Shown: positions 40,101 to 48,312 of the stretch, one piece after another | Numbering within the stretch: position 1 is the stretch's first letter | How the letters are laid out: the number at the start of each line of letters is the position of its first letter | Assembly (NCBI RefSeq): GCF_003999195.1 | Contig: NZ_RJVR01000327.1 | Location: 1-64,000, forward strand | Source: Streptomyces soli | Lineage (GTDB): Bacteria > Actinomycetota > Actinomycetes > Streptomycetales > Streptomycetaceae | Direction: 5' to 3' | Length of the DNA: 64,000 nucleotides | The notes under the pieces: model-generated | What the model was told of the DNA's origin: nothing | Seen by the model: only the letters and a program-made list of their open reading frames with translations | The model's database searches: none | Translations under genes and position numbers: made by a program

Positions 40101-40784
40101 TTACGCGGCGCCCAGGTCCGGGATCCGCCAGTCGACCGGGTCGTGGCCCTGCGCCTTGACCGCCTCGTCGATCTGCGTGAAGGGGCGGCTGCCGAGGAAG
40201 AGCTTCGCGGACAGCGGCGAGGGGTGCGCGCCCTGCACGACGGCGTGCCGCGAGGTGTCGATCAGGGGCAGCTTCTTCTTCGCGTAATTGCCCCACAGGA
40301 CGAAGACCGCCGGGTCGGGCCGCCCGGAGACCGCCTTGATCACCGCGTCCGTGAACTTCTCCCAGCCCTTTCCCTTGTGCGAGTTGGCCTCGCCCTCGCG
40401 GACGGTCAGCACCGCGTTGAGCAGCAGGACGCCCTGATGGGCCCACGGCATGAGATAGCCGTTGTCCGGGACCGGGTACCCGAACTCCTCCTTCATCTCC
40501 TTGTAGATGTTCCGCAGCGAGGGCGGGGTCTTCACCCCGGGCCGCACCGAGAAGCACAGGCCGTGCCCCTGGCCCTCGCCGTGGTACGGGTCCTGGCCCA
40601 GGACCAGCACCTTGACCTGGTCGTACGGCGTCGCATCCAGAGCGGCGAAGACCTCGTCACGCGGCGGGAAGATCTTGTGCGCGGCCCGCTCGGCCTCGAC
40701 GAACTCGGTCAGCTCCTTGAAGTAGGGCTTGTCCAACTCCCCACCGAGGACGGCCTGCCAGGACTCGGGCAGCATGCTGGGCAC
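40101..40784 (-). CDS. ung: Uracil-DNA glycosylase, family 1
   Basis: A 227-residue repair enzyme that excises uracil from DNA. All family-1 motifs are present: the catalytic-Asp water-activating loop GQDPYHGEGQGHGLCFSV, VLLLNAVLTV, VFVLWGNYAKKK and the minor-groove loop HPSPLSA. GTG 40784 has GGAGG at an 8-bp spacing and is preferred over the ATG three codons later. Upstream of it lies the left copy of the 84-bp direct repeat. Confidence 0.96.
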   Translation of the reverse strand: MPSMLPESWQAVLGGELDKPYFKELTEFVEAERAAHKIFPPRDEVFAALDATPYDQVKVLVLGQDPYHGEGQGHGLCFSVRPGVKTPPSLRNIYKEMKEEFGYPVPDNGYLMPWAHQGVLLLNAVLTVREGEANSHKGKGWEKFTDAVIKAVSGRPDPAVFVLWGNYAKKKLPLIDTSRHAVVQGAHPSPLSAKLFLGSRPFTQIDEAVKAQGHDPVDWRIPDLGAA

Positions 40785-40820: not shown

Positions 40821-40904
40821 TCAACGTACCGGGGACCACTGACAATCGCTCACGCGGCGTCGAGCCGGTCCCGCACCTCCGGAGCGAGGTCCGGCTCTGC
40901 GGCC
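40821..40904. repeat. Left 84-bp direct repeat (island boundary)
   Basis: 75 of 84 bases agree with 50480-50563 in the same orientation by manual alignment. The repeat spans the non-coding DNA before ung and the last 18 codons or so of the MFS gene. The right copy contains the 3' end of the aldo/keto reductase gene plus about 29 bp beyond it. This suggests that the AKR 3' end was the insertion site. Confidence 0.9.
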
Positions 40905-42049
40905 GTCCAGCGGATCTGTGTGCTGCACAGGGATACGAAGACCGCCGAGGCGGCGACGGCGCCCAGGCCCCACACGAGCCCCGTGGAGTTCGCTATGAAG
41001 CCGATGACCGGCGGTCCTGCGAGCAGGCCGATGGTTCCCATGGTGGCGACCAGGGTCAGTGCGTCCGAGCCCTGTCCCGCGGCAGCTACGTAGACGCAGG
41101 GGGTGACGGCTGCGATACCCAGCCCGACGCAGGCGAAGCCGATCAGGGCCGGCACCACGCCACCGCTCAGGAGGGCGAGCGCCAGCCCGGCGCCGGCAAG
41201 TGCGCTACCGCCACGGACAATCCGGCCGTCGCCCCAGCGGCTGCGCCACCCGTCAGCGAAGAGGCGAGCCATGACCATCATGACGGAGACGACAGCGATG
41301 CCCATGGGCGCCAGTTCCGCCGATGCCTTGGCGACGTCCTTCATGTAGAGGGCCGACCAGTCGTTCATGGCGCCTTCTGTCACGGTGCCGAAGGCCATGG
41401 CGGAGCCCATCCACAGCGTCATGCGCGCGGGTAGGGTCCACTTGGTGCGGCTCTTCTTCTCCTGCTGCTTCTCAGCGGGCTGCTCCTGGGGCAGCAGTCC
41501 CGACCTGGCGTACCCGACGAGCAGCAGCAGAATGACGGTGGCCACACCGAAATGCACGGCCACGGTCGAGGTCACCGTGTTCAGGCCCGAAGCCAGGAGC
41601 GCGGCGCCCAACGACCCACCGCTGAAGGTCGCATGCAGCTTGGACATGACGTTTCGCTGGTATGTGGCTTCGAGCGCGGCTCCCTGGGCGTTCATGGCGA
41701 CGTTGAGGCATGCCACGAGAACTCCGTCGCAGCACATGATCACCAGAGCGATCGGGTAGTTCGGCGCCACGGACAGCACAAGGAGCAGCAGCGCGAGGCC
41801 GAGAGCCGACACCAGCGAGAGGCGCCGGGAACCCAGCCGTCTCATCAGCATGGCCACCAGGGGAAACGATGCAGCCGCGCCGACACCGGTGGCCATCAGC
41901 AGCAGGCCGACTTCCGCCGCGGTCAGGCCAAGGTGTGTCTTGATGGCAGGGAGCCGCGATGCCCAGGTGGCGTACTGGAAACCCAGGCAGCAGAACAGAG
42001 CGGCGATTGCCAACTGTGCTCGGCGGAATGGATCGTGAACGCGGAACAT
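40850..42049 (-). CDS. MFS exporter of the five-gene operon
   Basis: A 399-residue transporter with 12 predicted spans; the N-terminus RAQLAIAALFCCLGFQYATW then ASRLPAIKTHLGLTAAEVGL is typical of the YbjJ/FucP-like MFS group. Last gene of the operon, 5 bp after the GNAT gene, so product export is the natural inference. The last about 18 residues (from TAAEPDLAPEVRDRLDAA) lie within the 84-bp direct repeat and mirror the aldo/keto reductase's C-terminus, so the tail is chimeric. Confidence 0.87.
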   Translation of the reverse strand: MFRVHDPFRRAQLAIAALFCCLGFQYATWASRLPAIKTHLGLTAAEVGLLLMATGVGAAASFPLVAMLMRRLGSRRLSLVSALGLALLLLVLSVAPNYPIALVIMCCDGVLVACLNVAMNAQGAALEATYQRNVMSKLHATFSGGSLGAALLASGLNTVTSTVAVHFGVATVILLLLVGYARSGLLPQEQPAEKQQEKKSRTKWTLPARMTLWMGSAMAFGTVTEGAMNDWSALYMKDVAKASAELAPMGIAVVSVMMVMARLFADGWRSRWGDGRIVRGGSALAGAGLALALLSGGVVPALIGFACVGLGIAAVTPCVYVAAAGQGSDALTLVATMGTIGLLAGPPVIGFIANSTGLVWGLGAVAASAVFVSLCSTQIRWTAAEPDLAPEVRDRLDAA

Positions 42050-42054
42050 ATGAA

Positions 42055-42624
42055 TCAGCCCACTTCGTCTTGCGATGAATGCCCGCGCAGCAAACCGCTG
42101 GTTGGTTTCGTTTTCTCGGTACGGTCTGCCGGCACCGCCCGGGACATGTACACCGGAGTCGCGCCGTAACCCCCCGCGGGGACCACCCCGTGGTGGACGG
42201 TGAATCCGTTCGCCGACCAGAAGGTCTCACTGCCGGCAACGGCGACCAGCGAGATCTGCTCGTACTCCTGCGACCCGGCCGTTGCGGTGAGGTGGTGCAG
42301 GAGACGCTTCGCAAGCCCCCTGCCGCGGAGATCCTCGGCAATGACGAGATCATGGAGATGCAGATTGCGCGAGCGGAAAACGATCTCCTCCGTGCGGGTC
42401 AGATCCGGATACTCGAACATCGGGTAGGGCAGGGCCAATAGGTAGCCCGCCAGTCGCTGTTCGACATTCAGCACAAAGCATGTGGTCGGCGACACGCGGA
42501 CTCTGGACTCCAGCGCGGTCCGCTCCTCCGACAGTCCGATGGCGGAATACGCACTGCTTTCCAGCGCTACTATGTCGCTCCAGTCGCCGTCGGAGACAGG
42601 GCGTATGCGTACGTCGCTGCTCAT
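42055..42624 (-). CDS. GNAT-family N-acetyltransferase of the five-gene operon
   Basis: A 189-residue acetyltransferase. IVFRSRNLHLHDLVIAEDLR then GRGLAKRLLHHLTATA contains the acetyl-CoA pyrophosphate-binding motif (RGRGLA). FWSANGFTVHHGV is the C-terminal motif. Substrate is not evident. The preceding decarboxylase would generate an amine, so N-acetylation of that amine is a reasonable hypothesis. Its ATG overlaps the decarboxylase stop (ATGA). Confidence 0.85.
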   Translation of the reverse strand: MSSDVRIRPVSDGDWSDIVALESSAYSAIGLSEERTALESRVRVSPTTCFVLNVEQRLAGYLLALPYPMFEYPDLTRTEEIVFRSRNLHLHDLVIAEDLRGRGLAKRLLHHLTATAGSQEYEQISLVAVAGSETFWSANGFTVHHGVVPAGGYGATPVYMSRAVPADRTEKTKPTSGLLRGHSSQDEVG

Positions 42625-43808
42625 CTGCGAGTGCCCTCCATGCCGCCTATGCACGTGTAGGGAAGCGGGCTGAAGCCGTTGAATCCCTGTGTCATGTAGC
42701 TCATGGCGTAGGCTCCGCTGGAGAGCACCCAGACCGGATCTCCCGATGCGAGCGCTTCGGGCACCTGGACCAGGCCGTGCTCACGGGAATAGGCGTCATC
42801 GCTGTCGCAGGTGGGCCCTGCGACCCTGGCTAAAACGTGTTCGCCGTCACGATGCGAGGGGAAGACGAGCCGGTACTGCAACTCGTCCATCTCATAGAGG
42901 CCGTTGAACTTGCCACAGCTCAAATACAGCCAGTACTGACGTTCACCGTTCAGGTTCTGTCGCCTGGACAGCCGGGAGACGTGTGCCCGGATGGCGCCGT
43001 GGTCGGCGACGAGATGGCGCCCGGGCTCCACGATGAAGTCGAGGTGGTGTCCGGGCACCTCCCTGCACTGCTGCATGCCCTCGCGGATGATGGCGAATAT
43101 CTTGTCCATCGGCGGGTCGAGCGGCTCGCCCCGCTTGTCGAGATAACCGAGAGCCGGCAGGCCGCCGCCGAGATTGACGTAATCCAGCGATATGCCACCC
43201 CGGTGCAGAACCGCGAGCACGTCGACAAGGCGCTCGAAAGCGCTTTGCCAGCCTTCGGACGTCATTTGCTGTGAACCGACGTGAACAGACAGCCCGGCCG
43301 GCTTCAGGCCTGCCTCCCGCGCTTTTTCCAACACGAGCACCGCATCGGCGGCCGAACAGCCGAACTTGCTGGTGAGCCCCCAGAGCGCTCCCTGCCCGTC
43401 AGTGGCCAGCCTGCAGAACACCCGAGCACCGGGAGCACAGGCTGCGATCGCCGCCACGTCTTCCAGACTGTCGGTGGCGAAGTCCCTGATGCCCAGACGG
43501 TACGCGTCGATGATGTCCCGGTCGGACTTGATGGTGTTGCCGTAGTGAATTCTTTCGAGGGGGACGCCGGAGCTGATCGCCTGCGTAATCTCGTTGGGTC
43601 CTGCCGCGTCGACTCCGGCGCCCTTCTCCGCCAGGCGGGAAATCACCTCGTCCACGGGACAGGCCTTCATGGCGAAGCGAACGGAGACTCCTGGCAGATC
43701 CCGTACGAGAGCTTCGTAGCGTGCTTCGATTCCTGCGAGATCGAAGATGATCTGGTCCTCGCCGGCGGCGGCCAGGGCGGCGAGCATGGATACGTTCTCG
43801 TGCATCAT
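42621..43808 (-). CDS. Ornithine/lysine-decarboxylase-like PLP enzyme (fold type III)
   Basis: A 395-residue alanine-racemase-fold decarboxylase. The PLP lysine is in VRFAMKACP, the LSVHVGSQ and VNLGGGLPALGY loops bind the cofactor phosphate, and the active-site dimer motif GPTCDSDD has the Cys and Asp typical of ornithine/lysine/diaminopimelate decarboxylases. IVEPGRHLVADHG is the glycine-rich PLP motif. It should decarboxylate a basic L-amino acid, perhaps one modified by the PhyH enzyme. ATG 43808 (8 bp after the preceding stop) fits the family start; ATG 43874 would overlap 58 bp. Confidence 0.87.
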   Translation of the reverse strand: MMHENVSMLAALAAAGEDQIIFDLAGIEARYEALVRDLPGVSVRFAMKACPVDEVISRLAEKGAGVDAAGPNEITQAISSGVPLERIHYGNTIKSDRDIIDAYRLGIRDFATDSLEDVAAIAACAPGARVFCRLATDGQGALWGLTSKFGCSAADAVLVLEKAREAGLKPAGLSVHVGSQQMTSEGWQSAFERLVDVLAVLHRGGISLDYVNLGGGLPALGYLDKRGEPLDPPMDKIFAIIREGMQQCREVPGHHLDFIVEPGRHLVADHGAIRAHVSRLSRRQNLNGERQYWLYLSCGKFNGLYEMDELQYRLVFPSHRDGEHVLARVAGPTCDSDDAYSREHGLVQVPEALASGDPVWVLSSGAYAMSYMTQGFNGFSPLPYTCIGGMEGTRR

Positions 43809-43816
43809 CGATGGTT

Positions 43817-45127
43817 TCAGCCAGGCTGCCGTTGAAGCTGGGTGGTTCTGCTCGCGTGAATCATTGGTGCCCATGCCTCGATCAGCAGTGCGAAGTCATT
43901 GTTGTCCTGCTGGGCTTCGTCGAGCAGTCGCTCCCGGCGTGACGCCACGATGTCGGCGAACTCGGCGTACTTGCCGCCCAGCTTTCGATAGGACCGGTCG
44001 ATCGTGTCCAGCCGCTGGATGTTCTCCGCTCGGTCCAACAGGGTGCTCTCCCTGACGAACTCGGTGATCGCGGGTATGCGTACCTGGTCCCGATCGTCGA
44101 GCAGTGACTCGCCGGCCTCTGCCATCCGGTCGTAGACGAAGTTGAAGTAGAGCATCGACAAGAAGAACTTCACGAACCGCATCTGGTACGCGATGAATCC
44201 AGGACCGGTTCGACGTTCCGGCGTGTAGAAGTTCACAAGGTGGCGATTGTGCAGAACGCCGGGCAATGCCGCGTCGTGGACAAGGTGAATGAGGAAGTAG
44301 TCGCTGCCGATGGTGTCCGTCGCGGGCGGCAGCGGCACCCATTCCTGCACCTGGTGGAAGGCGATGTTGCTCATGTCGACCCGCATGGGGTCGACGATGG
44401 TCAAGGTCGAGTGATCGTGGGTGAACGCCTCGGAGCCGGCTCCCCGGAACGACTCGTCGACGAGCTCCCTTTTCCTCTCGTCCGACCAATGGCCGGGCGC
44501 CCACAGGCTGACCACGTCGTAGTAGGCGTCGCGGTCGAGGCGGTACATCTCACCGATGTCCACGGACATCTCGCCCACAAAGGAGCTGCCCACCATCGTC
44601 ACCGGCTTGTGCGCGTGATTCGGGTCCAGCGTGGTCTCGTCCACGCCGTCCACCGCGTCGCTCGCACGTTTTCCGATCGACATGAGCTCGTGGTGGATGG
44701 GAAAGACCGGCGCGTCGTTCACGACCTGATAAAGGATGTCCGAATCCCGGCGGTGGATGGACTCGCAGCCCAGCGCGGCACCGATCAGGAACGCACGGTT
44801 GGTGCAGGCGCCGTAGGAGAGATCGGACGGGAGCATGAGCTCCAGCACCAGCTCGGGCTTGGCGACACCGGCATGGTGGATCACCCGCTGCAGAAACTCC
44901 CGCTGCTCCGCTTCGCCGAGGTGGTGCACGATCACATTCGGCACGGTGGGCGACTCGTGGGCGACCTTCGCGTGCTCCGTGAGGGCGGGCTCGTCGGAGG
45001 AGTCCAGAATCAGGAGGTGGACCTCGACGTCGAAGTGCTCGGCGGCGTAGGCCGCCTCCTCAAGGACAGCCGATATCGTCTCGGCGCAGGCCCTGTTGGT
45101 CGGGAGAGTCAGACAGATTTTGCGCAT
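43817..45127 (-). CDS. GT-A-like protein of unknown function (DUF6271-like)
   Basis: A 436-residue protein. The N-terminus ICLTLPTNRACAETISAVLE then HLLILDSS and LPSDLSYGACTNRAFLIGAA then ESIHRRDSDI have the layout of a GT-A nucleotide-sugar-binding domain with a DxD-like RDSD motif. The rest (SMLYFNFVYDRMAEAGESLL) is helical and unfamiliar. I believe this is the family catalogued as DUF6271, but this is from memory. It may be a glycosyltransferase or an amide/ligase-like enzyme. It overlaps the PhyH gene by 19 bp and precedes the decarboxylase by 8 bp. Confidence 0.65.
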   Translation of the reverse strand: MRKICLTLPTNRACAETISAVLEEAAYAAEHFDVEVHLLILDSSDEPALTEHAKVAHESPTVPNVIVHHLGEAEQREFLQRVIHHAGVAKPELVLELMLPSDLSYGACTNRAFLIGAALGCESIHRRDSDILYQVVNDAPVFPIHHELMSIGKRASDAVDGVDETTLDPNHAHKPVTMVGSSFVGEMSVDIGEMYRLDRDAYYDVVSLWAPGHWSDERKRELVDESFRGAGSEAFTHDHSTLTIVDPMRVDMSNIAFHQVQEWVPLPPATDTIGSDYFLIHLVHDAALPGVLHNRHLVNFYTPERRTGPGFIAYQMRFVKFFLSMLYFNFVYDRMAEAGESLLDDRDQVRIPAITEFVRESTLLDRAENIQRLDTIDRSYRKLGGKYAEFADIVASRRERLLDEAQQDNNDFALLIEAWAPMIHASRTTQLQRQPG

Positions 45128-46173
45128 ACCCGTTCCTCGTTCGACGGTTCGAGGTCCCGCTCGCTCCAGGATTCAAGACCCAGCAGCTTGGCACCCAGGT
45201 CGGTCAGCTTGGCGGTGTCGTACCTGAGGGATTCATGCCTCGTGGCATCACCGACGAGCGTCTTGTTCCACTCCGGCGTACTGAGATGGCGCCATGAGTT
45301 GACGCGGGAACGCCTCAGTTCCTGATGCGACTCCAGCGCAGGCATCATGGAGAGGTACTGGACGGCTCGAACGCCGTTCTCCGAGGTGTTGGGTGCCACT
45401 CCGTGTGCCAGCAGACCGTTCCAGATCAGCAGGTCGCCGGCCTTGAGCTCAGGCCGGACCACGGGGAACTCCGTCCGGTCGATGTTGGGCCGGATCGGGT
45501 CCCGGTCCGCCGGCTGGAGCGCCGCCCACCGGTCGAACTGACGGAACAGCTCGGGCGCGCACTGGAAGCCGCCTTGTTCCGGGTTGGTGTCGTTCAGCGC
45601 GATGATCCCCTGGACCCGCTGCGGCGGCACACCGAGCGTGGTGTCGATGTCCCAGTGGAGGTTGATGTCGAACCCGCGCTCCGTGGGGGCGATCAGCGCG
45701 CGGTCGCGGTTCTTGATGTTGGGCGGATTGAGATTGAGCCGGTCCAGAGTCACCCATAGCTCTTCGCAGTCCCACACGTCGACGAAGGCGTCGTAGACCC
45801 GCTGCGCCTGGCGGCTGTCCCATATGAGCTGGTGCTGGTACGCCTCGACGAACCCGTAGATGTGCAGTTCCCGGTCGAGATCCGAACGGAACTCGCGTTC
45901 CTCGTACCAGGTGTCCGGCCGGGCCGGATCGAGCCCCTGGAAGTCCCAGGCGAACTCCAGCAGGCGATCCGCCGAGGCGGCAGGAATCGCCTGCTTCACC
46001 ACGACGTAGCCGTAGGTTTGCCAGAAGGTTAAGTCCTCCTTTGACAACACCCGGAGCTTCTGCGTTTTTCGGAGATCCCGCAACGGCGTCTCGGCAAGAT
46101 ATGTGTCGCCGTCCCGGCTGAAATACGGGACGTCCGAGGGGGCTCGATGAAGATAGTGGTAGGGCGCCGGCAT
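45109..46173 (-). CDS. Phytanoyl-CoA-dioxygenase-type Fe(II)/2-oxoglutarate oxygenase
   Basis: A 354-residue PhyH-family protein, first gene of the operon. The Fe-binding HxD is in FDINLHWDIDTTLGVPP. The distal His is in LLIWNGLLAHGVAP, followed by NTSENGVRAVQYLSMMPA with the 2-oxoglutarate-binding Arg. Family members hydroxylate or desaturate acyl-CoAs, amino acids or natural-product scaffolds. With a basic-amino-acid decarboxylase two genes later, an amino-acid substrate is plausible. ATG 46173 is chosen because TTGGAG precedes it by 7-8 bases; a longer frame upstream to 46266 is not conserved-looking. Confidence 0.85.
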   Translation of the reverse strand: MPAPYHYLHRAPSDVPYFSRDGDTYLAETPLRDLRKTQKLRVLSKEDLTFWQTYGYVVVKQAIPAASADRLLEFAWDFQGLDPARPDTWYEEREFRSDLDRELHIYGFVEAYQHQLIWDSRQAQRVYDAFVDVWDCEELWVTLDRLNLNPPNIKNRDRALIAPTERGFDINLHWDIDTTLGVPPQRVQGIIALNDTNPEQGGFQCAPELFRQFDRWAALQPADRDPIRPNIDRTEFPVVRPELKAGDLLIWNGLLAHGVAPNTSENGVRAVQYLSMMPALESHQELRRSRVNSWRHLSTPEWNKTLVGDATRHESLRYDTAKLTDLGAKLLGLESWSERDLEPSNEERVCAKSV

Positions 46174-46461
46174 ACGTCGCTCCAAGGCTCGAATCTCTTG
46201 AGTGGACCGCTCCCAGACCGTCCCTGCGCCGGGACCCATCGGCTGCGTGGAGATACATCGGCGCATTCGGCGCCGACGACAGCAATCGCGCGTAGCTGTC
46301 GGTAAGGAATTTGATACGCACAGCGATGGGCGTCGTTGCCAGGGCGAACGGGCGCAGGGCGAGGGGCACTTGGCGTGTCCTCATGGGTTCCACCGGTCAA
46401 CTTGCGCACCGCGAGGGGTATTGCGACGCGCAGGTCACTTCCTGAACTCGTGTCACACCAA
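46174..46461 (-). other. Long untranslated leader before the PhyH gene
   Basis: About 280 bp separate the probable promoter from the PhyH start. A minus-strand frame opens at ATG 46384 (MRTRQVPLALRPFALATTPI, then VRIKFLTDSYARLLSSAPNA) and looks protein-like for about 50 codons before running on out of frame over PhyH. It could be a small upstream gene, a relic or chance. No riboswitch or RNA gene is recognised. Confidence 0.35.
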
Positions 46462-46489
46462 AATGGACTAGACCAACTCCGTGTGTCAA
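46460..46489 (-). promoter_or_regulatory. Promoter with DasR-like operator for the five-gene operon
   Basis: On the minus strand TTGACA (46489-46484), an 18-bp spacer and CATTTT (46465-46460). Within it, 46462-46477 reads AATGGACTAGACCAAC on the plus strand, matching the published DasR consensus A(C/G)TGGTCTAGACCA(C/G)T at 12 of 16 positions. The promoter is 287 bp ahead of the PhyH start. Confidence 0.5.
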
Positions 46490-46706
46490 CTGCCGAATTG
46501 GAAAGTTCCGGTGCTCGAAACACACGGGATCGCCGGTTCACGTAGAGCTGATGGCCAGCCCGCACAGAAGAAGGAGCCATTCCGCTTTGGTGGGCACGAT
46601 GGTGACCGCGCCACTACGTAAGGTGTGATCGACGGCCGCCGAGACGGCATGGCCTGCCGGCGGGACGCAGGCCCGACGAGCCCGGCCAGGGTGAACGATC
46701 TTCCTG

Positions 46707-46736
46707 TTGACACTGCGGATTGGACTAGGCCAGTAT
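46707..46736 (+). promoter_or_regulatory. Promoter with DasR-like operator for the GH3 hexosaminidase gene
   Basis: TTGACA (46707-46712), an 18-bp spacer and CAGTAT (46731-46736). The 16-mer ATTGGACTAGGCCAGT (46719-46734) overlaps the spacer and -10 and fits the DasR consensus at 13 of 16 positions. DasR is the GntR-type GlcNAc regulator known to control chitin and N-acetylglucosamine genes in Streptomyces, so the fit to a hexosaminidase gene is good. Confidence 0.65.
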
Positions 46737-46738
46737 CC

Positions 46739-46754
46739 ATTGGTCTGTACCAAA
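46739..46754. promoter_or_regulatory. Second DasR-like half-site pair before the hexosaminidase gene
   Basis: ATTGGTCTGTACCAAA contains the near-palindrome TTGGTC-TG-TACCAA and agrees with the DasR consensus at 11 of 16 positions. It lies immediately downstream of the -10, 47 bp before the ATG. Confidence 0.45.
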
Positions 46755-46800
46755 GCAGCGGTGCGATCGGCGTGTCGGCACTACTCGGAAGGCCCAGCTG

Positions 46801-48312
46801 ATGTCCTCCAGCAAGCACAGCAAGGAGTTGCGACGACTCGCGCTCTCCGTCCTGCAGCCGGGCTTCGTGGGCACCGAGACGCCAGACTGGGTGCTGCGCG
46901 ACATCAGTGACGGCCTGGCATCTGTCGTGCTCTTCGCTCGCAACATCGCCTCGCCCGAACAGGTCGCCAGGCTGACCGCCCAACTCCGGGCCGAGAACCC
47001 GTCGTTGATCATCGCGATCGACGAGGAGGCGGGGGATGTCACCCGCATCGAATCCTCGACCGGCTCCACCCGGCCCGGCAACTTCGCCCTCGGCGCCGTC
47101 GACGACATCGAGTTGACCGAGTCCGTCGCGCGCGACCTGGGCCGCCAGTTGCATGCCGCCGGCGTGAGCCTCAACTACGCGCCCAGCGTGGACGTCAACT
47201 CCAACCCTGACAACCCCATCATCGGGGTCAGGTCATTCGGCGTCGACGCCGCGCTGGTGTCCCGGCATGCCGCCGCGTGGGTCCAGGGACTCCAGTCGGC
47301 CGGTGTCGCCGCCTGCGCCAAGCACTTCCCCGGCCACGGGGATGTCGCCATCGACTCCCACCACGGCCTGCCCACCTACGACGCCGACCTCGACGAGATC
47401 GCCGCGCAGGCACTGCCCCCCTTCCGGGCCGCTCTGGAGGCCGGCGTACGCGCGGTCATGAGCGCCCACCTCCTTGTACCGGCCTACGACCCGGATCTTC
47501 CGGCGACCCTCAGCAGCCGCATCCTCAACGGCCTGCTCCGCAAGGAGCTCGGCTTCGACGGTCTGATCGTCACCGACGCCATCGAGATGGGCGGGGTGAC
47601 CAACCGCTACGGCATCGAAGGCGCCACGGTGAAGGCCCTCGTCGCCGGCGCCGACGCCATCTGCGTCGGCGGGGAGCACGCCGATGAGGCGACCGTCGAC
47701 CTCATCGTCGGCGCTCTCGTCCGCGCGGTGTCCTCCGGGGAACTCACCGAAGAGCGCCTGGCGGAGGCGTCCGACCGCGTCCAGGCGTTCGCCGACTGGT
47801 CGATCCGCTTGGGCCAGGCCGTCCCGGTCAACCCCATCAGCGGCGACATCGGCTTTGTCGCCGCCCGGCGCGCCATTCGGCTGAGCGGCTCCGTGGACGA
47901 CATCCTCCCGCTGACCGCCCCTCCGCACGTGGTGGAGTTGGTGCCCTCCACCAACCTGGCCATCGGGAAGGAGACGCCGTGGGGTGTCGCCGTTCCGCTG
48001 CGCGAACGACTGCCCGGAACCACCTTCGTCCGTGTGCATCACCAGGAGTTGGCGACTGATCCCGGCGTCCTGGAGAAGTACGGGCTGCTGCCTGCCTCGG
48101 GACGGCCGATGGTCATCGTCGTCAGGGACGCTTCCCGGAACAAGTGGATGGGCAACGCCCTCGCGGACCTCGCCAAGGCGCGTCCCGACGCGATCGTGGT
48201 GGAGATGGGGCTGCCCGGTGCCTCCGGCCCCGGCGCAGTCCAGATCTTCACTCACGGCGCCACCGCTGCCTCCGGCGTCGCCGCCGCGGAGTTCCTCATC
48301 GGTGCCCGATAG
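46801..48312 (+). CDS. GH3 beta-N-acetylhexosaminidase (NagZ-like)
   Basis: A 503-residue GH3 enzyme. The NagZ hallmark KHFPGHGDVAIDSHHGLP carries the flexible catalytic His and Asp. IIAIDEEAGDVTRIE and GLIVTDAIEMGGV (catalytic Asp nucleophile) complete the site. It releases terminal GlcNAc from chito-oligosaccharides or peptidoglycan fragments. A C-terminal extension of about 130 residues follows the barrel. There is no signal peptide, so it is intracellular. GGAAGG precedes the ATG. The promoter carries DasR-like sites, agreeing with a role in aminosugar use. Confidence 0.92.
   Translation: MSSSKHSKELRRLALSVLQPGFVGTETPDWVLRDISDGLASVVLFARNIASPEQVARLTAQLRAENPSLIIAIDEEAGDVTRIESSTGSTRPGNFALGAVDDIELTESVARDLGRQLHAAGVSLNYAPSVDVNSNPDNPIIGVRSFGVDAALVSRHAAAWVQGLQSAGVAACAKHFPGHGDVAIDSHHGLPTYDADLDEIAAQALPPFRAALEAGVRAVMSAHLLVPAYDPDLPATLSSRILNGLLRKELGFDGLIVTDAIEMGGVTNRYGIEGATVKALVAGADAICVGGEHADEATVDLIVGALVRAVSSGELTEERLAEASDRVQAFADWSIRLGQAVPVNPISGDIGFVAARRAIRLSGSVDDILPLTAPPHVVELVPSTNLAIGKETPWGVAVPLRERLPGTTFVRVHHQELATDPGVLEKYGLLPASGRPMVIVVRDASRNKWMGNALADLAKARPDAIVVEMGLPGASGPGAVQIFTHGATAASGVAAAEFLIGAR

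Follow-up and report, generated by a model that had tools for sequence, protein, structure and literature searches.

A compact operon of five genes in Streptomyces soli, occupying positions 40850–46173 on the minus strand of the 64,000-nucleotide stretch of contig NZ_RJVR01000327.1 that we analyzed (hereafter, the window), is conserved across genera and lies behind conserved DasR-type operator sequences. It is linked to a gene for a glycoside hydrolase family 3 (GH3) β-N-acetylglucosaminidase, and GH3 genes in this position have repeatedly changed a residue of their catalytic loop. One of the five products, a protein of the uncharacterized family DUF6271, adopts a GT-A-like fold in a confident structural model. 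The explanation that we tentatively favor, while giving it somewhat less than an even chance, is that the operon is induced by N-acetylglucosamine (GlcNAc) and makes an exported N-acetylated amine or glycoconjugate, against which a dedicated or altered GH3 enzyme would protect the producer. Antibiotic production in Streptomyces is tied to the sensing of feast or famine through GlcNAc and DasR, and the operon seems to be wired into this switch together with its own chitobiase variant. The compound should therefore be GlcNAc-inducible, and its function should be partly readable by a GH3 assay. The relevant features of the window are as follows.

45109–46173, minus strand: PhyH-family Fe(II)/2-oxoglutarate oxygenase, first gene of the operon, 354 residues from an ATG conserved in homologues
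43817–45127, minus strand: DUF6271 protein, predicted GT-A-like enzyme with a GT75-like fold (PF19787, 2e-233)
42621–43808, minus strand: fold-III pyridoxal phosphate (PLP) decarboxylase of the ornithine/lysine/diaminopimelate (DAP) type (Orn_Arg_deC_N, 1e-40)
42055–42624, minus strand: GNAT acetyltransferase (Acetyltransf_1, 3e-10)
40850–42049, minus strand: MFS transporter, last gene of the operon (MFS_1, 5e-22)
46801–48312, plus strand: second NagZ/DasD-type GH3 β-N-acetylglucosaminidase, divergent from the operon (Glyco_hydro_3, 5e-74)
46464–46475, minus strand: dre-like DasR box TGGTCTAGTCCA upstream of the PhyH gene, agreeing with the consensus core at 11/12 positions, with TTGACA at 46489–46484
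46707–46732, plus strand: TTGACA followed by a dre-like TGGACTAGGCCA (46721–46732) upstream of the GH3 gene, identified by sequence match
46741–46752, plus strand: further dre-like site TGGTCTGTACCA upstream of the GH3 gene, identified by sequence match

A first-pass annotation of the window had proposed that the five tightly packed genes form an operon belonging to no known pathway. All five open reading frames (ORFs) are indeed present on the minus strand, their junctions are exactly those it gave (a 19-bp overlap, an 8-bp gap, a 4-bp overlap and a 5-bp gap), and Pfam matches bear out every family assignment. An NCBIfam search gave no specific function for any of the five proteins. Comparison across genomes supports the notion that the genes behave as one unit. 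A scan of GTDB species genomes for DUF6271 yielded 28 loci, of which 17 have all five genes together, mostly in the same order and at about 43–83% identity. Among 50 DUF6271 loci with wide flanks, some of them near-copies of one genome, the five genes occur together in 28, DUF6271 only with GNAT in 10 and PhyH only with DUF6271 in nine. Since all five have been kept together in different genera, their arrangement is not a matter of chance; nor did we find them scattered, each on its own, across genomes. The order is not rigid: the decarboxylase gene comes first in two five-gene loci (L013 and L025). The MFS transporter is 61–82% identical across full operons, the PhyH protein is 68–82% identical within Streptomycetaceae, variant clusters included, and GNAT is kept beside DUF6271 in loci that have no PhyH or decarboxylase gene. 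DUF6271 itself is present in 132 of 298 sampled Streptomycetaceae genomes (44%). Among 396 sampled genomes of the phylum it was confined to this family; one locus from outside the family, seen in the GTDB scan, is that of Nucisporomicrobium (L029). Fragmented or tandem copies of DUF6271, apparently decaying duplicates, were also seen (L020:4024–6251, G084, G038, G158 and G204).

The same annotation had limited the operon to five genes. In fact, the unit is larger, as the DasR boxes and the DasD/NagZ-type GH3 gene belong to it too. The intergenic region separating the PhyH and GH3 genes (46174–46800) contains three sites near TGGTCTAGACCA, at 46464, 46721 and 46741. The DasR operator is A(G/C)TGGTCTAGACCA(G/C)T, with TGGTCTAGACCA as its core (PMC4398421). 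Across loci the layout is stereotyped, with TTGACA followed after about 8 bp by TGGTCTAGTCCA; the promoter in the window reads TTGACA-N8-TGGTCTAGTCCA. A DasR-type site (at least 10/12 matches) lies within 600 bp upstream of the PhyH gene in 56 of 68 loci, not all of them independent, compared to 0.6 loci expected from shuffled sequences and 5.6% of random 600-bp windows drawn from the same loci. Most of the remaining loci have a site elsewhere, so that nearly every Streptomycetaceae copy is preceded by one. In L013, L025 and L072, the site precedes the decarboxylase gene, which is the first gene there; in L005 it precedes a co-directional GH3 gene, and in L010 it is found at −658. Genomes G138, G004, G031 and G020 have perfect 12/12 palindromes farther upstream, and G257 has only an 11/12 site, about 1.5 kb up. 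The combination of TTGACA and TGGTCTAGTCCA is likewise placed ahead of DUF6271 in most DUF6271+GNAT loci, and in several loci it stands before the linked GH3 gene.

In S. coelicolor, purified DasR binds the TGGTCTAGTCCA 12-mer as a dre (scr5239); the 12-mer also occurs upstream of dasA/dasR and between SCO6033 and the hexosaminidase gene SCO6032, where binding takes place in vivo (PMC4398421). Thus, the operon shares with the DasR/GlcNAc regulon of Streptomyces (dasABCD, chitinases, SCO6032–SCO6033) the 12-bp operator core, including its asymmetric form TGGTCTAGTCCA, as well as the placement of a hexosaminidase gene at a shared divergent region, just as in SCO6032–33 (PMC4398421). Unlike in that regulon, the genes concerned here are of biosynthetic type and include DUF6271. 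Given these similarities, we infer that DasR binds the boxes of the operon as well. In addition, a GntR/UTRA regulator gene and das-type transport genes adjoin the operon in several lineages. In L011, the linked GH3 gene and the operon come after three genes, which encode a GntR/UTRA-type protein, a solute-binding protein and a permease; L010, L012 and L014 show the same gene clusters in the same order. A gene resembling the L011 regulator stands immediately before the PhyH gene in L082, and a GntR/UTRA-type regulator gene lies next to the cluster in L004 and L007. Pfam was used to assign the regulator of L007 and the transport genes of L010, and sequence likeness to assign the other regulator and transport genes.

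The GH3 gene of the window shares the boxed intergenic region with the operon. Its product contains the signature loop KHFPGH(G/N)GxxxxDSH and the nucleophile Asp, and the closest solved structure is a GH3 β-N-acetylglucosaminidase (6k5j). It is a second copy: the genome also has a canonical, das-type NagZ (G000, contig C131), which is 57% identical to the GH3 of the window and adjoins what by eye appear to be ABC permease and SIS-domain genes. Second copies, defined as matches to the GH3 of the window at E ≤ 1e-185 among the 298 Streptomycetaceae genomes, are present in 39 of 132 genomes with DUF6271 as opposed to 5 of 166 genomes without it (Fisher's p 7e-11, ignoring relatedness). In 34 of the 39, the listed coordinates place the second copy within about 3 kb of DUF6271. 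These proteins form a separate, operon-linked clade, 55–60% identical to the das-type DasD/NagZ copies. All 48 members examined have Ala or Ser at position 77, where 50 of 51 unlinked canonical enzymes have Gly; they also have Arg at position 91 in place of the aromatic residue of canonical enzymes and Tyr in place of Trp126 of the housekeeping DasD. Since the catalytic residues (KHFPGHGD...DSH and the nucleophile Asp, shared with DasD/NagZ enzymes) are kept throughout this clade, the second copy is not a dead relic.

A different change distinguishes those canonical, das-type GH3 copies that are linked to the operon. Asn183 is found in all eight of them and in none of the 51 unlinked canonical copies, a pattern that was noticed in the alignment, where the position was chosen, and that is not the outcome of a prior prediction. 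Position 183 aligns with Asp230 of B. subtilis NagZ, two residues before Asp232 of the D-x-H dyad. The IQ-TREE phylogeny of GH3 has well-supported branches that require the linked label to have changed at least three times. It appears, then, that the GH3 enzyme encoded beside the operon repeatedly changes its catalytic loop, as would be expected for either target modification or altered processing. If so, the recurrent Asn183 offers a testable marker of contact between the metabolite and an enzyme of chitin degradation. The setting is reminiscent of self-resistance clusters with a duplicated or altered housekeeping enzyme: there is a second copy beside the operon, loop residues are altered, and the boxed promoter region is shared. 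Unlike in such clusters, the GH3 copy is not universal among operon carriers, and its protective role here is our conjecture.

Several observations weigh against protection by GH3 under DasR control. Most genomes with DUF6271 have no second GH3 copy, and the five-gene genomes G138, G004, G257 and G020 have only an unlinked, unaltered DasD. An altered GH3 is therefore not obligatory, and we rejected the idea that every producer needs one. The replacement of the aromatic residue by Arg at position 91 in the second-copy clade could reflect a new substrate rather than protection. Finally, the operon of the marine gammaproteobacterium Bowmanella has no DasR-type box upstream.

These points bear on two other explanations. 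According to the first, GH3 is a processing enzyme that removes a temporary GlcNAc-type sugar attached by the DUF6271 protein, the other steps of the cluster being the same. The second-copy clade fits this idea, as it keeps the catalytic residues and differs from housekeeping DasD at many positions, among them 91 (aromatic to Arg), 126 (Trp to Tyr) and 77 (Gly to Ala or Ser), which is what a new substrate would require, and as it is placed under the same boxed region as the operon. On the other hand, some operons have no linked GH3 at all, and the linked das-type copies change mainly a single loop residue, to Asn183; we consider processing somewhat unlikely. According to the second, GH3 is a mere physical or regulatory neighbor, co-inherited under GlcNAc control, and the product (for example, a signal, a metal-binding compound or an antibiotic) is unrelated to hexosaminidases. 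DasR does control unrelated secondary metabolites (PMC4398421), and the second copy is present in just 39 of the 132 genomes with DUF6271. However, simple co-inheritance is hard to square with linkage to two different GH3 paralogues and with the change of the same loop residue in three lineages of das-type copies, which makes this explanation distinctly unlikely. Protection of the producer remains the interpretation that we prefer.

What might the DUF6271 protein contribute? Its AlphaFold2 model, based on 30 homologues, is confident (pLDDT 92) and substantiates the first impression of a GT-A-like protein. The best-matching folds are those of MtdL (Z 23.2; root-mean-square deviation 3.4 over 310 aligned residues) and rice UAM (Z 20.4), both members of GT75, followed by MPGS (Z 17) and GPGS (Z 15). 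The resemblance to GT75 NDP-pyranose mutases (MtdL, Hyg20 and plant UAM/RGP) spans residues 1–427, and the model shows the GT75 fold of a GT-A domain with a helical C-terminal region. As in MtdL (PMC9937993), an acidic motif follows the first half of the protein, and an H-x-R motif is found late in the sequence. Invariant positions of the family include P9-T10-x-R12, D42, R127-x-x-D130, T272-x-G274-x-D276-Y277 and H293, and they hold even in a 19%-identical protein encoded on an Apilactobacillus kunkeei plasmid. The Mn2+ of MtdL is coordinated by Asp111 and His287, and Arg289 is close to it (PMC9937993); H293-N-R295 of DUF6271 resembles this H-x-R at the level of the motif. Unlike in GT75, homology to RGP is not detectable in the sequence: hhalign against an RGP/GT75 protein gave no match, and in Pfam only PF19787 was matched, outside the RGP family PF03214. 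No Arg is found among the invariant columns between 128 and 294, the stretch in which the conserved autoglycosylated Arg (R158 of OsUAM1) would presumably lie. A sequence search against solved structures returned no relatives. The next best folds, those of retaining GT-A enzymes with small acceptors (MPGS, GPGS and MGS; Z 14–17), belong to soluble enzymes acting on small acids, yet identity to them is at most 12–15%. On the basis of the model, we conclude that DUF6271 is probably an NDP-sugar-dependent GT-A enzyme, either a mutase or a transferase, and we do not file it as GT75. The family can now be given a fold, a candidate class of sugar donor and a place in regulation.

For the remaining enzymes, the evidence is mostly at the level of active-site residues. 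The PhyH protein (Pfam PhyH, 5e-12) has an ORF that reaches further, to 46266, giving 385 aa; its most likely start, judging by conservation, is the ATG at 46173. In the numbering of the 385-aa ORF, the iron triad HxD...H consists of H204, D206 and H288, invariant in 15 homologues including that of Bowmanella. The AlphaFold2 model of PhyH was too poor for use (pLDDT 48), and a sequence search against solved structures found no relatives. In the decarboxylase, the PLP-binding K70 of the fold-III domain (PF02784, 1e-40) is invariant in 14 homologues, and the best solved match is a Lys/Orn decarboxylase (2plj). The protein shares the PLP Lys and the GPTCDS motif with lysine/ornithine and DAP decarboxylases. 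However, all specific NCBIfam models score far below cut-off (lysA, 135 of 298 bits), and the specificity helix differs in the alignment from that of ornithine decarboxylase (ODC), the specificity region reading SCGKFNGLYE. GNAT had one marginal match among solved structures (E 0.05).

The enzymes had initially been arranged into a chain of reactions. This arrangement is not supported: the order of the reactions was guessed, and neither the decarboxylase nor GNAT is an obligatory link, both being exchangeable modules, because PhyH with DUF6271, or DUF6271 with GNAT, occurs with other partners such as condensation-domain, aminoacyl-tRNA synthetase (aaRS)-like or ATP-grasp proteins. Thus, PhyH and DUF6271 are accompanied in L075 and L089 by a stand-alone condensation-domain protein, a class-II aaRS-like protein and an MFS transporter. 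The latter locus (L089:7193–16650), on S. clavuligerus plasmid pF1D18A, has PhyH, DUF6271, condensation and MFS genes in a row, then two transketolase genes, and also a divergent aaRS-like gene. Another (L084:5161–14663) combines a PGM1-like ATP-grasp protein, a DAPDC-like decarboxylase, PhyH, DUF6271, a GT2-like protein, MFS and a linked GH3. The distant DUF6271 gene of the honeybee bacterium A. kunkeei lies in a compact plasmid cluster (L090:8912–19310) that encodes two ATP-grasp proteins, a methyltransferase, a class-IV aminotransferase, a split transketolase, an aaRS-like protein and a carrier protein. Taken together, the gene content of these variants suggests a biosynthetic role centered on a building block that resembles an amino acid. 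In Bowmanella (L027:1–16000), PhyH, DUF6271, decarboxylase and GNAT genes, without MFS, are followed by two GT2 genes and a gene for a MATE-like transporter; the stretch also encodes an ABC transporter ATPase, a GH3, a TonB receptor and a CBM5/12 protein.

It is very improbable that the operon is catabolic, with MFS taking up an aminosugar conjugate released from chitin or the cell wall for breakdown: DasR-type boxes and GH3 neighbors are typical of GlcNAc catabolism, and the Bowmanella cluster shares one 10-kb stretch with the ABC transporter ATPase, GH3, TonB receptor and CBM5/12 genes, but the condensation-domain, aaRS-like and ATP-grasp proteins of sister PhyH+DUF6271 clusters build rather than degrade, and both GT-A enzymes and GNATs generally serve anabolism.

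The biosynthetic interpretation with a protective GH3 can be put as follows. The operon would constitute a single DasR-controlled cluster with the divergent GH3 gene. When GlcNAc-derived metabolites rise during chitin or cell wall turnover, DasR would leave the boxes in 46174–46800, and both sides would be expressed. PhyH might then hydroxylate an amino-acid-like substrate, and DUF6271 might add or rearrange a sugar from an NDP-sugar; in view of the regulation, UDP-GlcNAc would be a fitting donor. Decarboxylation by the ODC-like enzyme would leave an amine, GNAT would acetylate it, and MFS would export the result. The product would most likely be a small N-acetylated, amine-bearing (glyco)conjugate that meets β-N-acetylglucosaminidases, and a dedicated or altered GH3 would allow the producer to go on degrading chitobiose. 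This scheme is weakest where it concerns the substrate, the sugar donor and what GH3 does (protection or processing). A more specific version, that a widespread and hitherto overlooked family of DasR-controlled operons uses DUF6271, as a new family of GT75-like enzymes, to make a GlcNAc-induced, hexosaminidase-directed metabolite from a hydroxylated, decarboxylated and N-acetylated amino acid, and that altered DasD evolved repeatedly for tolerance, we regard as doubtful.

Nagstatin, siastatin B and allosamidin are Streptomyces inhibitors of hexosaminidases or chitinases. We considered them as possible products, and nothing in our data links them to the operon. In the open-access literature, no paper on this gene combination or on DUF6271 was found, in agreement with the early impression that no known pathway is matched, and nothing was found on DasR together with phytanoyl-CoA and decarboxylase. 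The enzymes come from known superfamilies and DasR-controlled clusters are already known; the combination has apparently not been described before.

As for the surroundings of the operon, the gene just downstream of MFS (40101–40784, minus strand) reads, by eye only, like a uracil-DNA glycosylase, and therefore the operon probably ends at MFS. An Rfam scan of the 64-kb window gave no match. The contrast in GC content reported initially was based on two 60-bp samples that had been counted correctly (58.3% and 76.7%), but it was exaggerated by sampling, the actual values being 64.5% for the operon and 70.8% for the remaining window. Even so, of all stretches of this length in the window (mean GC 70.0%, standard deviation 2.0, minimum 63.5%), the one with the lowest GC content overlaps the operon.

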